A DNA stretch of 42,221 bases from a virus. Shown piece by piece: positions 6,930 to 42,221 of this stretch. Position numbers and translations under genes: made by a program. A model generated the notes under the pieces. It was given only the letters and a program-made list of their open reading frames with translations. It was not told the DNA's origin and made no database searches. The stretch covers positions 1 through 42,221 of IMG/VR virus record IMGVR_UViG_3300033153_002739; one strand, 5' to 3'. The stretch's first letter is position 1; each line of letters starts with the position of its first letter.

Positions 6930-8999
6930 GTGAATAAAACAGTTAAAGAAATGTTAAAGGTCATTAACTTAACCGATCCAACCATTCATAATGATATAGC
7001 ATTAAATGCAATTCATTATTCTATGGGCTTAGTATCCTCTGCAAGAGGTGTCAAGTTCAATATGTATGATACAGAATTACCTGTGAATTACTTTGGGTTG
7101 ACCTTGGCTGGCTCAGGAGAAGGTAAAGATAGAAGTGTAGATATATCTAAACGTATACTTGCACCTTCTATTGCCCTATATCAGATAGAGTTAGAGAAAC
7201 AGTTCGCTGCCTTTAACTCTAAATTGACAGCCAAGGATAAGCCTTTGATGTTGCCTATGTTTGAATTTGAACGTGCAACTGTTGAAGGTTTCTTGAGTCC
7301 AAGAGTTGATATTCAGACCGTAGGGTTTGGATGTACCAATCTTCGTATCCCTGAAATACAGGATATGTTGTCATCAAAGGATAGTCTTGAAATATTTAGT
7401 GAAGTGGTTAAAGCATGGGAATCAGGAGATACAGGTGGGAAGACTAATAGAGGTCATCCTATTGCTCCTACTACTGGTATCCCTGTTAATGTCCTTGTAT
7501 ATGGATCACCAAATGCAATCAAGACAAACAAACAGTCAAGTGAACACTTACTCAAGATGCTTACATCAGGTCTAGGTAGACGTGCATTCTTGGCTGTACC
7601 ATCTAAGCATGAGGTGCAATCTTTACTAAAGGCATTGCCTGTACCAAGTGATCAGAGTAGAAAAGATGAAGCAAAGGCTCAAGCTGATGCTAAAGTCTTG
7701 TCTAAACTCATAGGTAGTGATGTTAAGAGTTTAATTATGGGTACAGTAAATGTGCTCAAAATGAGCGATGAAGCCCATAAAGCATACTCGGAATACAACT
7801 ACGTATGTAAGACTGCGTTCGTGGATAATAACACGGTTTCTGATGGATTGGTGGCAGAAATGTTAGGACGAGCATGGAAGGCTATTAGATTAGCAGCTAT
7901 GTATGCTTTTTATGATGGTCAAGATGAGATAACTGATCTAAATATGGAAGATGCTATTGAATATACTGAGAAGTGTGGACAAAATGTAAAAGATCTATAC
8001 CATGTACCAAGCAACCAAGAGTTAATGTTGTCTTATCTTGGTATACAGGAAGGTCCTGTGACACGTCAGGCTATTATGAAAGAGGCACTTGATACAAGTA
8101 CGGTTTCTGTGTTTAATGATACGTTGTCCTTGGCTGAGGAATTAGCTGATGAGCGTAATCAGATCATAGAGATAAGTGATGATAAGATTCCTAGATTTTC
8201 TTTAACGCAATTATCAAAGATTGAGTTATCGAAGATCACCTTATCTACAAGTAAGCGTATGGGTGAAGGTTGGAAGCCATTGACAGGTGAGTTTGAGGAT
8301 TTAGGTTCCCTCGTAGCAAGCCCGGTATGGTATTCTGCAGGTACATTTAAAGATGGACTGAGATTGAATGATAATTATGAGCAGAAACAAGACGTTATGA
8401 TTTTCGATATTGATGAAGATATGACGCTTGATACAGCCAAAGCATTCTTCTCAGATTTCAAGTGTATTATCGCTACAACCAAGTCACATCAGAAGGAAAA
8501 GCACCCTGGAACAGGAGACATTTGGGACAGATTTCGTATAATATTAGTACCCGACTCACGCATTGAGTTAGATCCCGAAACCTATTCTCGCTTTATGTTA
8601 AACGCCATGGATATGATGGGTATCCCTGCAGATAGAAAAGCTATTGATCCTGCAAGATTCTTCTTTGGATACGATGGAGCAGAGGTTTGGTACAGCCCAG
8701 GTGAGAAATTATTCCCTGTGAAGGCATGTATCCCTAGCACATCCAAGGCAGAGACAGTCCACAAACGACTTGAGAAGTTTGATACTGTAGAAGGTATTGA
8801 AAGATACTTTATTTCTAGCACTGATAAAGGTGACAGAAATAATAAGCTGTGGAGATATGCTTGTGTTCTTAAAAAGAATGATGGATATTCTGATGAAGAG
8901 ATAGAGGAAAAGGTTATTGCACTCAATCAAAAGATTGCAGATCCATTGCCTGAACGAGAACTTCGAGTCACTGTACTTAGAAGTATAAGGAGAAAATGA
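6930..8999 (+). CDS. Primase-helicase: P-loop ATPase + AEP-like primase + PriCT
   Basis: 689 residues from a GTG with AAAGGAG in front. Residues about 50-370 resemble the DUF3987-type phage ATPase, with a P-loop-like LAGSGEGKD near 59-67. Residues about 480-600 look like an archaeo-eukaryotic primase/polymerase domain: FDIDED (Asp493, Asp495), SHQK (His520), RFRIIL and DPARFFF. The last 75 residues resemble PriCT (RNNKLWRYA, then LPERELRVTVLRS). Combined primase-helicases usually put the primase first, so this order is unusual. With no DNA polymerase found, this protein probably starts phage replication and recruits host machinery. Confidence 0.8.
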   Translation: MNKTVKEMLKVINLTDPTIHNDIALNAIHYSMGLVSSARGVKFNMYDTELPVNYFGLTLAGSGEGKDRSVDISKRILAPSIALYQIELEKQFAAFNSKLTAKDKPLMLPMFEFERATVEGFLSPRVDIQTVGFGCTNLRIPEIQDMLSSKDSLEIFSEVVKAWESGDTGGKTNRGHPIAPTTGIPVNVLVYGSPNAIKTNKQSSEHLLKMLTSGLGRRAFLAVPSKHEVQSLLKALPVPSDQSRKDEAKAQADAKVLSKLIGSDVKSLIMGTVNVLKMSDEAHKAYSEYNYVCKTAFVDNNTVSDGLVAEMLGRAWKAIRLAAMYAFYDGQDEITDLNMEDAIEYTEKCGQNVKDLYHVPSNQELMLSYLGIQEGPVTRQAIMKEALDTSTVSVFNDTLSLAEELADERNQIIEISDDKIPRFSLTQLSKIELSKITLSTSKRMGEGWKPLTGEFEDLGSLVASPVWYSAGTFKDGLRLNDNYEQKQDVMIFDIDEDMTLDTAKAFFSDFKCIIATTKSHQKEKHPGTGDIWDRFRIILVPDSRIELDPETYSRFMLNAMDMMGIPADRKAIDPARFFFGYDGAEVWYSPGEKLFPVKACIPSTSKAETVHKRLEKFDTVEGIERYFISSTDKGDRNNKLWRYACVLKKNDGYSDEEIEEKVIALNQKIADPLPERELRVTVLRSIRRK

Positions 9000-9463
9000 T
9001 GGATAGAAAAGAATTAAATAGCTTCTTTATGAAAGGAGCAGGGATCATTGCACCAATGAATTCTTGTATTGGATGTGACAAATCATATTGCTGTAAAGGG
9101 CAACGTGATATTGCTGTTACTGGTACATGGATTGAAGAAATCAAATCTATGATCACAACCAAGCAACGTGAGCGATTTGATACTATGAGAGATGATGGAC
9201 TTATTGATTGTCCATTTAATAGAGAGGATGGTAAATGTGAGATCTATGATCATAGACCGTTTGTCTGTGCATCATATCATGTACTTGAAAGTCCTGAAAG
9301 ATGTAACACTGACCTAGTAAAAGAAGAGATCTCAATGATTCATCCTGCAGCTACACTACAGTGTGCTATGGATTTAGGTAGAGCACCATTTACTGATCAG
9401 TTGAAAAAAGAGTTCGACTCAGGTAACTTTTCTATCTTGGATGCATTTAAGGACACAGAATGA
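8996..9463 (+). CDS. YkgJ-type CxxCxxxCC protein (putative metal cluster)
   Basis: 155 residues. The N-terminal CIGCDKSYCC (Cys24, 27, 32, 33) is the hallmark of the YkgJ / zinc- or iron-chelating family, and CPF...GKCEIYDHRPFVCASY in the middle is the usual second half. The family is widespread in bacteria, thought to hold Fe-S or zinc, and of unknown biochemical role. The start overlaps the primase stop as ATGATG, so it is made with the replication protein. Its place between primase and recombinase suggests a DNA-related role, but that is inference. Confidence 0.8.
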   Translation: MMDRKELNSFFMKGAGIIAPMNSCIGCDKSYCCKGQRDIAVTGTWIEEIKSMITTKQRERFDTMRDDGLIDCPFNREDGKCEIYDHRPFVCASYHVLESPERCNTDLVKEEISMIHPAATLQCAMDLGRAPFTDQLKKEFDSGNFSILDAFKDTE

Positions 9464-37604: not shown

Positions 37605-37746
37605 TCTTCACCTCAGTCTTGATTTCATTTATAATTGATCGTACTCCTGCAGCTTTACCTTGGTTGAATGGTGTAACTTCTACAAGTGGTGTGTGATCCG
37701 GGTATCTACCTTCTAAGAGTTCGAGCAACTCTAATACTTCATCCAT
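37585..37746 (-). CDS. Small acidic protein, first gene of the late block
   Basis: 54 residues from the ATG at 37746 (37749 is also possible); AAGGAG lies six to seven bases upstream. A longer in-frame reading back to 37893 would overlap the divergent gene and has no ribosome site. The protein has a Leu/Glu-rich helix (DEVLELLELLEG) and a basic end. No family recognised. Confidence 0.65.
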   Translation of the reverse strand: MDEVLELLELLEGRYPDHTPLVEVTPFNQGKAAGVRSIINEIKTEVKNAKGKR

Positions 37747-37783
37747 CATTTCTCCTTTTCGTGAACTTATGATACCATAATAT
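37747..37783. promoter_or_regulatory. Divergent intergenic region (late promoter site expected)
   Basis: Only 37 bases separate the two start codons. The block includes the ribosome site of the minus-strand gene and an AT-rich stretch (CCATAATATATG) next to the plus-strand start. Late minus-strand transcription must begin at or to the right of here, probably within or beyond the plus-strand gene. No consensus -35/-10 pair is clear. Confidence 0.35.
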
Positions 37784-38347
37784 ATGAGTTTAAAAACATC
37801 ACTTAGAAGAAACCGTAATGGTGAACGTAATATAATAGTACCCAACAGACTCGATACAATCGAGTTCATGCAGCCAAGGGAGAGAGTACGCAAGGTTATT
37901 GGAGATCTTGACAGTCAGGTAATGAATGCCTTCTTCAACCCACCCAACCGTGGTAAGTTCTATAAACACTACATACGAATGCCTACCTTATATAACAATG
38001 AAGTCATAGACATGTCTCTACGTGGCAGACAATCTGTCTTTGCCTACCTGATCAACCACCATCTCTGTGGTAAACTTGCCTACATGTTAGAACATCCCAA
38101 CATGTACGGTGAGTTCAAGGACTTCAAACGTGCCTGGGTATCCAATGCCCTCTATGCTATGCGTAACACCATACTCAAACAGATGTATCTACGTGGTGAG
38201 ATTGGCACTACTCGCAGTAATTCCATTAATGCCATCATAGCCTTACCCTATCACAAGCCTCTTGACTACTATTCAGGTGGACTCTTGGCTGATAAGTTGT
38301 TTGATATATGCTATGAACGAAGTATGTATCTATTGTCTATACGATAA
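37784..38347 (+). CDS. Hypothetical basic protein, odd base composition
   Basis: 187 residues, basic, with RNIIVPNRLDTIEFMQPRERV, NPPNRGKFYKHYIRMPTLYN and NALYAMRNTILKQMYLRG. No Shine-Dalgarno precedes the ATG, and an in-frame stop lies six bases upstream, so it may be leaderless or start further in. Its coding strand has clearly more C than G (66 to 43 over 38041-38280 by hand count), opposite to the other plus-strand genes. Long open frame and normal protein composition support it. Function unknown. Confidence 0.65.
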   Translation: MSLKTSLRRNRNGERNIIVPNRLDTIEFMQPRERVRKVIGDLDSQVMNAFFNPPNRGKFYKHYIRMPTLYNNEVIDMSLRGRQSVFAYLINHHLCGKLAYMLEHPNMYGEFKDFKRAWVSNALYAMRNTILKQMYLRGEIGTTRSNSINAIIALPYHKPLDYYSGGLLADKLFDICYERSMYLLSIR

Positions 38348-38705
38348 GTATAGCTTATAGGGTTCAATTTTTGGGATACATACGTAATGCACTATCCCCA
38401 TCATAAGTAATTAGTGTTTCCCCCATGGCAGTTAATAGAAGCTAGTAATATAAGGCTTGGTTGTGGTGTAAGATCTAGTTTATTCCCTGTGTGTGTGGGG
38501 TAAACGCAGGTCAATATAATTAGATAACACACAGACAAACTATCAAGTCAAGAGCACTTTTGGGTATGCATGTCATTGTAGACGCTATCCAAGTCATACA
38601 GGCAGAGTGTGTCATCAGTCCATGCCTCTCAACCGTGCAAGTATACTATGTTGCAAAGTTGTCTATTGCCAGTCCTTCCACTACAAGGGCGTGAGTATGT
38701 TCGAA

Positions 38706-38745
38706 GCACATGCAGTCAACCCATTCTTCGGGCGTTGACTTGTGC
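38706..38745. repeat. Stem-loop in the noncoding region
   Basis: GCACA and AGTCAAC (38706-38720, with a three-base bulge between them) pair with GTTGACT and TGTGC (38734-38745). CC and GG extend the inner end, and the loop contains TTCTTC. That gives 14 or so pairs. It is not followed by a T-run. Confidence 0.6.
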
Positions 38746-38784
38746 AGTGAGTATCCATTAGGATTTTTTGACCAGTAATAGTAT

Positions 38785-38855
38785 GACACAGCCACTTCGT
38801 TAAACCTGAGTAACACATAATACAAGTAGTATGTGTTCCTAAGGTTTGCTGTGTC
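38785..38855. repeat. Compound inverted repeat upstream of a small gene
   Basis: Three perfect blocks pair in order: GACACAGC with GCTGTGTC, AAACCT with AGGTTT, and AACACATA with TATGTGTT. This makes 22 pairs, with a nine-base bulge on the left side and a four-by-four internal loop, around a ten-base apical loop. It ends 41 bases before the next start codon, leaving room for a ribosome site. It may be an RNA leader element or an origin cruciform. Confidence 0.65.
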
Positions 38856-38896
38856 CTAAGATTCCTGTTTTAAAAAATTAACCTAAAGGATACACA

Positions 38897-39106
38897 ATGA
38901 ACAAGACAACTAAGAAATGGGCTAACAGCACGCACTACGAACAAGCACACGCTTACCTTGTAGAGAAAGAACTACCAACAGACAACGAACATGTATACTC
39001 ACAGCTTCTTGAGAGTCAAGGACTGACGACAAACTTGCTCGACTGTAAGAAATGGATAGCATCACACAATGTCATCCTCGACACAAAAGGTTTCACTCTC
39101 GCCTAG
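38897..39106 (+). CDS. Small hypothetical protein, paralogue A
   Basis: 69 residues. MNKTTKKWAN at the start, then Y, L, EL and N at matching places and KKWIAS near the end, align with the protein at 40372-40575, so the two are diverged duplicates. AAAGGA lies nine bases upstream. Like the gene before it, its coding strand has more C than G (59 to 47 over 38881-39120 by hand), unlike paralogue B. Function unknown. Confidence 0.7.
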   Translation: MNKTTKKWANSTHYEQAHAYLVEKELPTDNEHVYSQLLESQGLTTNLLDCKKWIASHNVILDTKGFTLA

Positions 39107-39179
39107 AGAGTGTGACCGTGTGTCACCTAATTATAAACTTTGACTGCTATCCATAAAGTTCGGGTGTTCATAAACTATT

Positions 39180-39220
39180 GGGTGTGTATGGTGGTGGTGG
39201 GTGGTGGTGGGACGGGTTGG
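39180..39220 (+). other. G-rich tract with quadruplex potential
   Basis: About 40 bases with repeated GGT units and three GGG runs (39199-39201, 39209-39211, 39214-39216) plus many GG runs. One or more G-quadruplexes could form on the plus strand. It lies at the skew flip and just left of the large inverted repeat. Confidence 0.6.
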
Positions 39221-39391
39221 TAAAAAATTGCCACAGCATGTATGGTCTTGATCTAGGTCAAGGATGTTGTTCTGTTGCTGATGTTATATTGGTGTGGTGG
39301 TTGTTCGCTTTGATGTTGACTTGCTTGTTAATGCATGATATGTGTATGAAGTGAGATTGATTGTTGATTTGAGTTGATCCTGTATGTTACG

Positions 39392-39550
39392 AAATTTCGA
39401 TATGAACAAGTTAAGCATGATGTAACTTACGCTAGTCTGACGCTGTAAAACTCAAGCCCTTCGGGTTTTTGGCTCGTTCCTCACCAAAAAACTTTTCCAT
39501 CCTCAGACTATCCTAAGCAGATCATGCTTAAGAACTTCATATCAAAATTT
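39392..39550. repeat. Large compound inverted repeat (159 bases)
   Basis: Four perfect arm blocks pair in order: AAATTT, GATATGAA, TTAAGCATGAT and TAGTCTGA (6, 8, 11 and 8 pairs, 33 in all). The internal loops are almost symmetric: one by one, four by four and eleven by ten. The 62-base centre holds a small CCCTTCGGG hairpin followed by TTTTT. It ends 20 bases before the next start. The symmetry suggests a selected structure in RNA or extruded DNA. Confidence 0.75.
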
Positions 39551-39570
39551 AGTAACAAAAAGGATTTGTA

Positions 39571-39957
39571 GTGTATGTAAGTATTGAAGAAGTTAAGTTG
39601 AATTTATTGAATGTAATTGATTGTGAAGTAATGCATGATTATATTGTATGTTTGGATGAAGATGGATCGTATTGGGCAACCAAGCAATATCAGCCTAAGT
39701 TTGATGATGTAAAGAGTGTACCATTTGCACCAGCAGCCAAGTGGATGACTGATAGATTTGCTAGATTGCTTGGTAAAGGTCATGGGGATGTGAATGATCA
39801 GCTTGAAGATGCACGTATTAAAGATTTGGCTACTGTATCATTGGAAGAGACTAGATGGACTGATCATGACTTCTTTGGTAGTAAGGATGCTATGATGAAT
39901 GAAGTTATGCCGGGAGCATTTGGTAATGAGTATGCGAACAAGGAGTTTAGTCTATGA
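39571..39957 (+). CDS. Hypothetical protein, 128 residues
   Basis: It starts at a GTG with AAAAGGA seven bases upstream, right after the large inverted repeat. The N-terminal half is beta-rich (NVIDCEVMHDYIVCLDEDGSYWATK) and the rest is charged. It is the first gene of the early strand after the origin-like region. It contains two of the CANCCAAG motifs. No known family. Confidence 0.7.
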   Translation: MYVSIEEVKLNLLNVIDCEVMHDYIVCLDEDGSYWATKQYQPKFDDVKSVPFAPAAKWMTDRFARLLGKGHGDVNDQLEDARIKDLATVSLEETRWTDHDFFGSKDAMMNEVMPGAFGNEYANKEFSL

Positions 39958-40276: not shown

Positions 40277-40287
40277 GTAGTAGCATT

Positions 40288-40307
40288 GAGGAGATATTGA
40301 TCTCTTC
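40288..40307 (+). terminator. Stem-loop between early genes
   Basis: GAGGAGAT and ATCTCTTC pair over eight bases (one G-U) around ATTG. Only CATTGG follows, not a T-run. It may be a leader hairpin or weak terminator between the 31-residue gene and paralogue B. Confidence 0.4.
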
Positions 40308-40371
40308 ATTGGTTCAACCCGAAATGTCAGTAGTGACTAACAAATTATAACATACCTGGAGGTATAGAAAA

Positions 40372-40575
40372 ATGAATAAAGAAACTAAAAATTGGGCAAA
40401 CCCTGAACAGTACGCAGCAGCTAAAGTGATCCTTGAAAAACAAGAGTTGGACACTAAAAATATTTACCTGTATGAGAAAGTTCTCAAAGCAATGAAGTTT
40501 GATACATTTATGGGTGACTTGAAACCATGGATCGCAGCACAAGCTGTTGAAGTTGATCTGTCGGAGGTAGCGTAA
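40372..40575 (+). CDS. Small hypothetical protein, paralogue B
   Basis: 67 residues: MNKETKNWAN, then Y, L, EL, T-N and KPWIAA at the places seen in the gene at 38897-39106. CTGGAGGT lies eight bases upstream, a strong ribosome site, so it is probably well expressed. The last codons (GAGGTAGC) also serve as the ribosome site for the next gene. Function unknown. Confidence 0.75.
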   Translation: MNKETKNWANPEQYAAAKVILEKQELDTKNIYLYEKVLKAMKFDTFMGDLKPWIAAQAVEVDLSEVA

Positions 40576-41351: not shown

Positions 41352-42221
41352 ATGAATAAAACACCAGTAATCAGTATGGATAATGGAGAGTTGATCGCAG
41401 CTATGGTTATAGAAGAAGAAGCAAGTAAAGTGCTAGGTTCTTCACCATTTGCAACCAAGAAAGATCCTGCTAGAAATATATATTATAGAGGCAGTGATGG
41501 CGTTGTTCACTTCAACAAGATACCGGGTATGATGCAACGTCCATCACCAACAAGTCAAGAGAGTATCAAAGAAACTGTTGCCAAGATCACAGAAGGTATT
41601 GCTGCACCAAAAGCAGAAGCCATTTATGACAGTGTTGCAGCGTCTTTTGCAATCATTGATGTTGAAAATACATTTGAATACCAACCAACTACTGACGATA
41701 TGGCAGAACTTGCTGGTATCTATGATGCGATGATCATTCAACTTGAAGCTATGAAAGGTGGAGCAGGAGGCAACATTGACAGCAAGCTTGAGAAGTATTT
41801 CTTTAAGAAGCATTTACTCATCCAAGGTGAGAAAGGTGGAGGCAAGACATACATGGTATCAAAGATGATCGCTGATATGGATGATGATATTGAAAGTGTA
41901 TCTATCCGTGGAAATGAGTCTATTGAAGCCATTGATCTGCTTGGTCACTATATCAGAACTGAGACAGGTGGACTTGTATGGAAAGATGGACCACTGACCA
42001 GTGCATTTAGAATGGCTGCTGCAGGTAAACCTGTTGTCCTGTTTATAGATGAAATGCTGAGAATACCTAAGCGTGAGTTAAACGTCTTGGTTGGTTCTTT
42101 GTCTCCGGACTCAAGTGGGAATTTCAGTCTTGATACATCGAGAGCTGGATCCATTGAAGTTGAAGAGGGTAAAAGTGCTATTGCAAACATTGAGACATTA
42201 ACTGTACCAAAGAACATGCTA
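41352..42221 (+). CDS. CobS/MoxR-like AAA+ ATPase, N-terminal part (continues at 1)
   Basis: The gene runs off the window end and continues at base 1 of the window in the same frame (codon 253 begins at 42108). Walker A is GEKGGGKT (159-166), Walker B is VVLFIDEM (Asp233, Glu234). The first 150 residues are a variable N-terminal region without clear domain. The intact gene of about 422 residues is likely functional. GGTAAG upstream is a modest ribosome site. Confidence 0.87.
   Translation, partial: MNKTPVISMDNGELIAAMVIEEEASKVLGSSPFATKKDPARNIYYRGSDGVVHFNKIPGMMQRPSPTSQESIKETVAKITEGIAAPKAEAIYDSVAASFAIIDVENTFEYQPTTDDMAELAGIYDAMIIQLEAMKGGAGGNIDSKLEKYFFKKHLLIQGEKGGGKTYMVSKMIADMDDDIESVSIRGNESIEAIDLLGHYIRTETGGLVWKDGPLTSAFRMAAAGKPVVLFIDEMLRIPKRELNVLVGSLSPDSSGNFSLDTSRAGSIEVEEGKSAIANIETLTVPKNML
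42108..42221. repeat. Terminal direct repeat, right copy
   Basis: Exact copy of 1-114, showing that the contig closes on itself. Remove one copy to get the unit genome of about 42,107 bases. Confidence 0.95.

Follow-up and report, generated by a model that had tools for sequence, protein, structure and literature searches.

Long leader hairpins enclosing the Shine–Dalgarno sequences of two successive early genes in uncultivated T7-like phages: candidate translational locks

Introduction

A long inverted repeat lies directly upstream of a plus-strand gene at position 39571 of the window, i.e. the whole 42,221-base stretch of DNA analysed here, which is a complete IMG/VR virus record. A sequence-only reading had taken this repeat for a selected structure, either a structured RNA in the leader of that gene or a DNA hairpin at an origin. 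The question raised by the locus is therefore whether the fold belongs to RNA or DNA and, if to RNA, what it may do to the gene that follows. The gene at 39571 is referred to as gene B, the preceding gene as gene A, and the long imperfect hairpins before them as rods H2 and H1, respectively (Table 1).

Results

Extent and base of the inverted repeat

The four perfect arm blocks reported at 39392–39550 were all found: AAATTT/AAATTT (6), GATATGAA/TTCATATC (8), TTAAGCATGAT/ATCATGCTTAA (11) and TAGTCTGA/TCAGACTA (8). The internal loops between them, described as near-symmetric, are indeed 1×1, 4×4 and 11×10. A mini-hairpin had been placed at the centre; it is present (CCCTTCGGG, 39457–39465) but lies slightly 5′ of the symmetry axis at 39471. 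The 159-base repeat is likewise real, but its extent was under-called, as it continues gapless outward to 39377–39565 and adds ATCC/GGAT and GTTAC/GTAAC. The arms (39377–39421 and 39521–39565) are 45 nt each, ungapped and 82 % complementary. The earlier reading did not include the outermost 15 bases on either arm, the Shine–Dalgarno sequence (SD) at the foot of the rod, or the second rod and tip core described below.

Folded as RNA, 39392–39550 reaches −45 kcal/mol (z −6.8), and the extended rod about −59 kcal/mol (z about −8, from −7.8 to −8.2), with 0 of 200 shuffles as stable in either case. At the base of H2, AGGAT (39561–39565) is paired with ATCCT (39377–39381); the SD of gene B thereby enclosed sits 5 nt upstream of the GTG codon.

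Table 1. Features of the rod region, in window coordinates
Feature	Position	Strand	Basis or remarks
Rod H1, leader hairpin of gene A; SD AAAGGAT in 3′ base strand	38751..38893	+	Fold; z −6.4
Gene A, 69 aa, ATG start	38897..39106	+	Homologues in relatives; paralogue at 40372
G/T-rich spacer, unstructured, between gene A and H2	39161..39376	+	GC skew +0.61
Rod H2, long imperfect leader hairpin of gene B	39377..39565	+	Fold, inverted repeat, covariation with G003
Core strand 1, UAAAA-CUCAAG-(CCC UUC GGG)-UUUUU	39446..39470	+	Common to G003 (L012 4228–4254) and G001 (L002 2288–2315)
Loop CUCGUUCCUCACC	39473..39485	+	UCGUUCCUCAC identical in G003 (alignments)
Core strand 2, AAAAAA-C-UUUU; would pair both ends of strand 1 into a three-way junction	39486..39496	+	Common to G003; 5′ of strand 1 in G001
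SD AAGGAT of gene B	39560..39565	+	Sequence and fold; predicted unpaired probability about 0
Gene B, 128 aa, GTG start	39571..39957	+	Homologues at the same place in relatives

A second rod at the neighbouring gene

A sliding scan of the whole window placed the most structured 200-nt stretch of the minus strand at 39372–39571 and that of the plus strand at 38701–38900, the latter resolving into H1. In the base of H1, GGATAC, which overlaps the SD of gene A, is paired with GTATCC. When the 200-nt leaders of 47 window genes were ranked by structure, gene B came first (z −7.74) and gene A second (z −5.49); in the same ranking of 46 genes of the related phage G003, gene A was second and gene B third. 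The noncoding flanks of the rods remain at chance level (z between −1.5 and +0.8), and the structure signal is thus specific to the rods. A larger RNA filling the 400–550 nt noncoding stretch before H1 was also considered and rejected, its structure being no greater than that of shuffles.

Genome context and related phages

The window is T7-like by its capsid, head–tail connector, terminase and internal virion proteins. Structural genes occupy the minus strand at about 13–38 kb, and the plus strand carries replication genes and a pair of AAA (MoxR/CobS-like) and vWA-like (CobT-like) genes (41352–42221 and 513–2243) that is kept in the phage group. A DNA search of 50,697 phage records with the window returned chance hits only, without a real match, and capsid identity to named phages is at most 35.5 % among the matches listed. 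The vWA protein was matched neither by tblastn among 50,697 phage records nor in bacterial genomes, and a search for relatives with the proteins at 39571 and 40784 returned none. Four related phage contigs were found: G001 (L002/L010), G002 (L003/L007–L009), G003 (L012) and G004 (L023), with capsid identities to the window of 61, 39, 87 and 45 %, respectively. The order gene X, noncoding stretch, A, B, AAA is kept in G001, G003 and G004, and vWA follows the AAA gene in G001 and G003. G002 has the capsid and a connector (54 %) in common with the window; gene X, the AAA gene and the core motif were not found in it.

Homologues of gene A are 50 % (G003), 44 % (G001) and 45 % (G004) identical, and those of gene B 40, 28 and 19 %, respectively. 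A structure model of the gene A protein predicts three helices (pLDDT 76), and a structure search with it gave no significant fold match (best E 0.7); the model of the gene B protein is of low confidence. The paralogue of gene A (window 40372; L012 5324) has a conserved leader of its own (window 40286–40371; L012 5238–5323), consisting of two hairpins, the first GAGGAG...CTCTTC and the second a small one that contains the SD and covaries between ATACCTGGAGGTAT in the window and TATCCATGGAGGATA in G003.

Spacers between genes A and B are G/T-rich and C-poor in the window (Table 1), in G003 (L012 3940–4163, skew +0.38) and in G001 (L002 2607–2675, +0.57). They mark a switch in composition, possibly an origin or a transcription boundary. 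Further upstream, the noncoding stretch that follows gene X contains TTCCCCC in 4 of 4 phages (window 38420, L012 3133, L002 1678, L023 1306), 64–73 nt past the gene X stop in three of them.

Other elements were observed elsewhere in these genomes. In G001, a group I intron (L002 5122–5405 and 5390–5953; Rfam RF00028, E 4e-18) with a GIY-YIG-like endonuclease interrupts the AAA gene at its P-loop. The same codon is interrupted in G003 (L012 about 8345–9220) by similar sequence, below the Rfam threshold, with an HNH-like gene; the AAA gene of the window is uninterrupted there. G003 also has a 360-nt noncoding leader (L012 6940–7300), not seen in the window, before a zinc-ribbon/HNH-like gene; z is −6.1 over the 200 nt that immediately precede the chosen start. 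Among the structural genes, a structured RNA precedes the tail gene after the major capsid gene (window 30276, minus strand, and the matching place in G001, G002 and G004; z −2.9 to −6.0), and is perhaps a terminator like the one behind T7 gene 10.

Recurrence and covariation of the rods

Both rods recur in G003 (L012 3576–3727 and 4164–4341). In G001 a single rod stands before gene A (L002 2166–2393) and gene B is without one, and in G004 a weak version precedes gene A. The z values of the six rods are −6.4, −7.8, −6.6, −5.7, −7.1 and, weakly, −2.4 (G004). All six, over four phages, stop 1–5 nt short of the initiation codon of the gene they precede (A or B), and in each the base contains the SD. 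As in leaders of the T4 gene e type, the SD is paired inside an RNA helix: its predicted unpaired probability is about 0 in the five strong rods (A and B in the window and G003, A in G001), compared with mostly 0.2–0.9 at the comparison genes 40784 and 41352. The SD of gene A in G004 is partly paired. That of G001 seems unpaired in the leader ranking because its rod is cut by the 200-nt limit; with 300 nt upstream included it is fully paired.

Covariation in related phages had been proposed as a check on the structure, and it was found. H2 of the window and H2 of G003 were aligned from sequence alone and the window fold was then mapped onto the alignment. Between these two alignable sequences, 28 pairs are unchanged, 11 have changed on both sides and still pair, none has changed on one side only, 15 are broken and 13 face gaps. 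Sliding the partner by 1–3 columns yielded 0–2 double changes, and 0 of 500 control shuffles attained 11; the pairing therefore appears to be under selection. For example, TAGTCTGA/TCAGACTA in the window stands opposite TAAAATCA/TAATTTTA in G003. Some of the broken pairs coincide with an apparent misalignment of the G003 helix CACCACACC/GGTGTGGT. A 10-mer of the 3′ arm, CATATCAAAA, is kept between the two phages.

A conserved core at the rod tip

The tip is kept in sequence while the remaining rod is rewritten. The window, G003 and G001 share UAAAA-CUCAAG-(3–4 bp stem, UUC loop)-UUUU(U) together with AAAAA-C-UUUU. The stem of the small hairpin varies among the three phages with its pairing kept (CCC/GGG, CCAC/GUGG and CACC/GGUG). 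A junction could form from this hairpin plus the pairing of UUUUU with AAAAA and of UAAAA with UUUU(A); an alternative to the junction is an extended small hairpin in which AAG is paired to UUU. The AAAAACUUUU strand comes after strand 1 in the window and G003 and before it in G001, a difference in strand order interpreted, from the sequences, as one core that has undergone circular permutation. A single copy of AAAACTCAAGC is present in each of the three genomes, and each core strand is single in the whole record of the window and of G001; shuffling the G001 rod 20,000 times yielded AAAAACTTTT in 144 cases.

Among viral contigs, the core motif is real only in G001 and G003. Contigs L014–L018 were rejected as carriers, the matches being chance and without a rod. 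A search of 84,980 genomes of bacteria and archaea gave 14 matches; core strand 2 was not near any of them, and all were likewise judged to be chance.

Known RNA classes and expression signals

The earlier statement that no known RNA family is recognizable holds against Rfam 15: neither the window nor the rods in L012, L002 and L023 gave a match at gathering score or E ≤ 1, the one plant-miRNA match being chance and far below threshold. A group I intron in the rod was rejected in the absence of an Rfam match, as were a retron and tRNA/tmRNA, for which there was no evidence (no reverse transcriptase is among the families found), and an integron attC site, whose boxes are in the wrong orientation by eye. 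No terminator (GC-rich stem and T run) was found in window 37700–39700 or L012 2400–4500; a short stem with TTTTTGG is terminator-like by eye only. Sigma-70-like promoters near or inside the rods were none above chance, and the sigma-70 consensus may not be this phage's type. With respect to RNase III cleavage, the rods have helices of up to 11 bp and small loops.

Discussion

The leader RNA offered by the sequence-only reading is supported: H2 covaries with its G003 counterpart, the rod ends on the gene's own SD, and the same design recurs both at the adjacent gene A and in three related phages; confidence in the strand is lower. H2 is probably a cis-acting 5′ leader RNA of the early gene B that acts as an SD-hiding translational lock, and H1 likewise for gene A. 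In the plus-strand transcript, the leader would fold into an imperfect rod of roughly 65 bp once the 3′ arm has been made. Its basal helix would pair the AAGGAT SD with ATCCT about 180 nt upstream, and with the SD so paired ribosomes, it is proposed, could not load; H1 would hide the SD of gene A in the same manner. SD occlusion is thus expected, on the predicted folds, to lower the translation of A and B. Opening might occur by RNase III-type cleavage of the rod, as at adhE and lambda cIII, or by a transcript starting inside the rod, as at T4 gene e; both are guesses. Pairing that is kept despite changed sequence points to a built-in switch on the making of both proteins.

The tip core may, by conjecture, be the site at which a phage or host factor acts. 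That it is a new RNA module, binding a specific ligand or protein and thereby switching the rod between a state that hides the ribosome site and one that exposes it, as a phage-encoded sensor controlling early genes, is a tentative and rather unlikely proposal.

Two competing explanations concern the strand and the nature of the folding molecule. Across the six rods there are 8 G–U pairs on the plus strand against 33 on the minus strand, and H2 itself folds better on the minus strand (−72.8, z −9.4) than on the plus strand (−59.1, z −7.8), as would suit a leftward antisense RNA or countertranscript over the starts of A and B. However, there is no minus-strand gene here that needs a leader and no promoter above chance, and placement at plus-strand SDs would be coincidence. 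Most of the wobble excess comes from H1-type rods, left of the composition switch, and it is greatest where the plus strand is A/C-rich; a strand mutational bias may have produced the same excess, since drift towards A and C would give A/C mismatches. The strand-neutral mismatches number 3 G/T against 21 A/C over the six rods, and 0 against 4 in the two H2 rods. A minus-strand RNA is considered very unlikely. The wobble counts of the two H2 rods give no support for the plus strand, and lower the confidence of the strand assignment; the position of the rods relative to the SD argues for a plus-strand RNA, and it is from this strand that the RNA is inferred to be made. Wobble counts without plus-strand preference also suit a DNA element, in which a replication origin would contain the rods as cruciforms or as folded single-stranded DNA. 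The DNA folds with z −10.7, a cumulative GC skew minimum lies close by, and the composition switch after gene A has similar counterparts in G003 and G001. Gene orientation diverges at the same point as the skew minimum, however, and this evidence is thus confounded; nor does an origin predict two rods on successive SDs or the rod of G001 at another gene. The origin hairpin of the earlier reading is not supported by position, as the rods track SDs and start codons, and it is given the same low probability as the antisense RNA.

Two further explanations do without a lock. In a T7-like phage, rods between early genes recall the early processing sites of T7, and RNase III may cut them to separate and stabilize early mRNAs, the SD pairing being incidental. 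Such a processing or mRNA-stability signal is quite unlikely, as it explains neither why every base helix contains the SD and stops 1–5 nt from the start codon nor why the tip core is conserved and permuted. The near-ungapped self-complementarity of H2 over 189 nt, with 66 % identity to its own reverse complement, would also be expected of a functionless inverted duplication, decaying or kept alike by template switching. This palindrome, already disfavoured, is extremely unlikely: it fails to account for rods that recur at corresponding gene starts in phages that have diverged, for the SD in each base and for the sequence-conserved core.

If the rods are translational locks, what is new is that an uncultivated T7-like group has large rods at two early genes in succession and keeps them by compensatory change. 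The core, absent from Rfam and permuted between relatives, is a candidate new RNA motif. The locus would offer a small, testable system for phage timing of early translation, in which any ligand of the core is directly searchable.

Leaders that hide the ribosome site are known in phages, mostly as short helices at single genes; those of T4 e, soc, 49 and I-TevI are short, and the early RNase III sites of T7 are much shorter than the present rods. Hammerhead types I–III are a circularly permuted RNA class with a three-way junction and varying strand order. The tip core resembles them in having a putative three-way junction whose strand order differs among examples; unlike them, its CUCAAG / C is not a hammerhead core, and it has no Rfam match. 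T7 mRNAs are processed by RNase III (PMC4858673). Like the early sites of T7, the rods are hairpins in a T7-like phage that separate early genes; they differ in taking in the SD of the following gene, and genes A and B are without named relatives. In E. coli adhE and phage lambda cIII, a ribosome-binding site hidden by RNA structure is opened by RNase III (PMC5371410). The rods share with these the occluded ribosome-binding site and double-stranded RNA suited to RNase III, and differ in that their sequence is unrelated and that they come from an uncultivated phage group. In T4 e, soc, 49 and I-TevI, an mRNA leader helix contains the SD and blocks initiation, and a promoter within the gene e helix also yields shorter transcripts (PMC3014915). 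No promoter was recognized inside the present rods. The phage leader helix with the SD inside is common to both; unlike the T4 leaders, the rods are 140–230 nt long, stand at two successive genes and carry a conserved core predicted to form a three-way junction.
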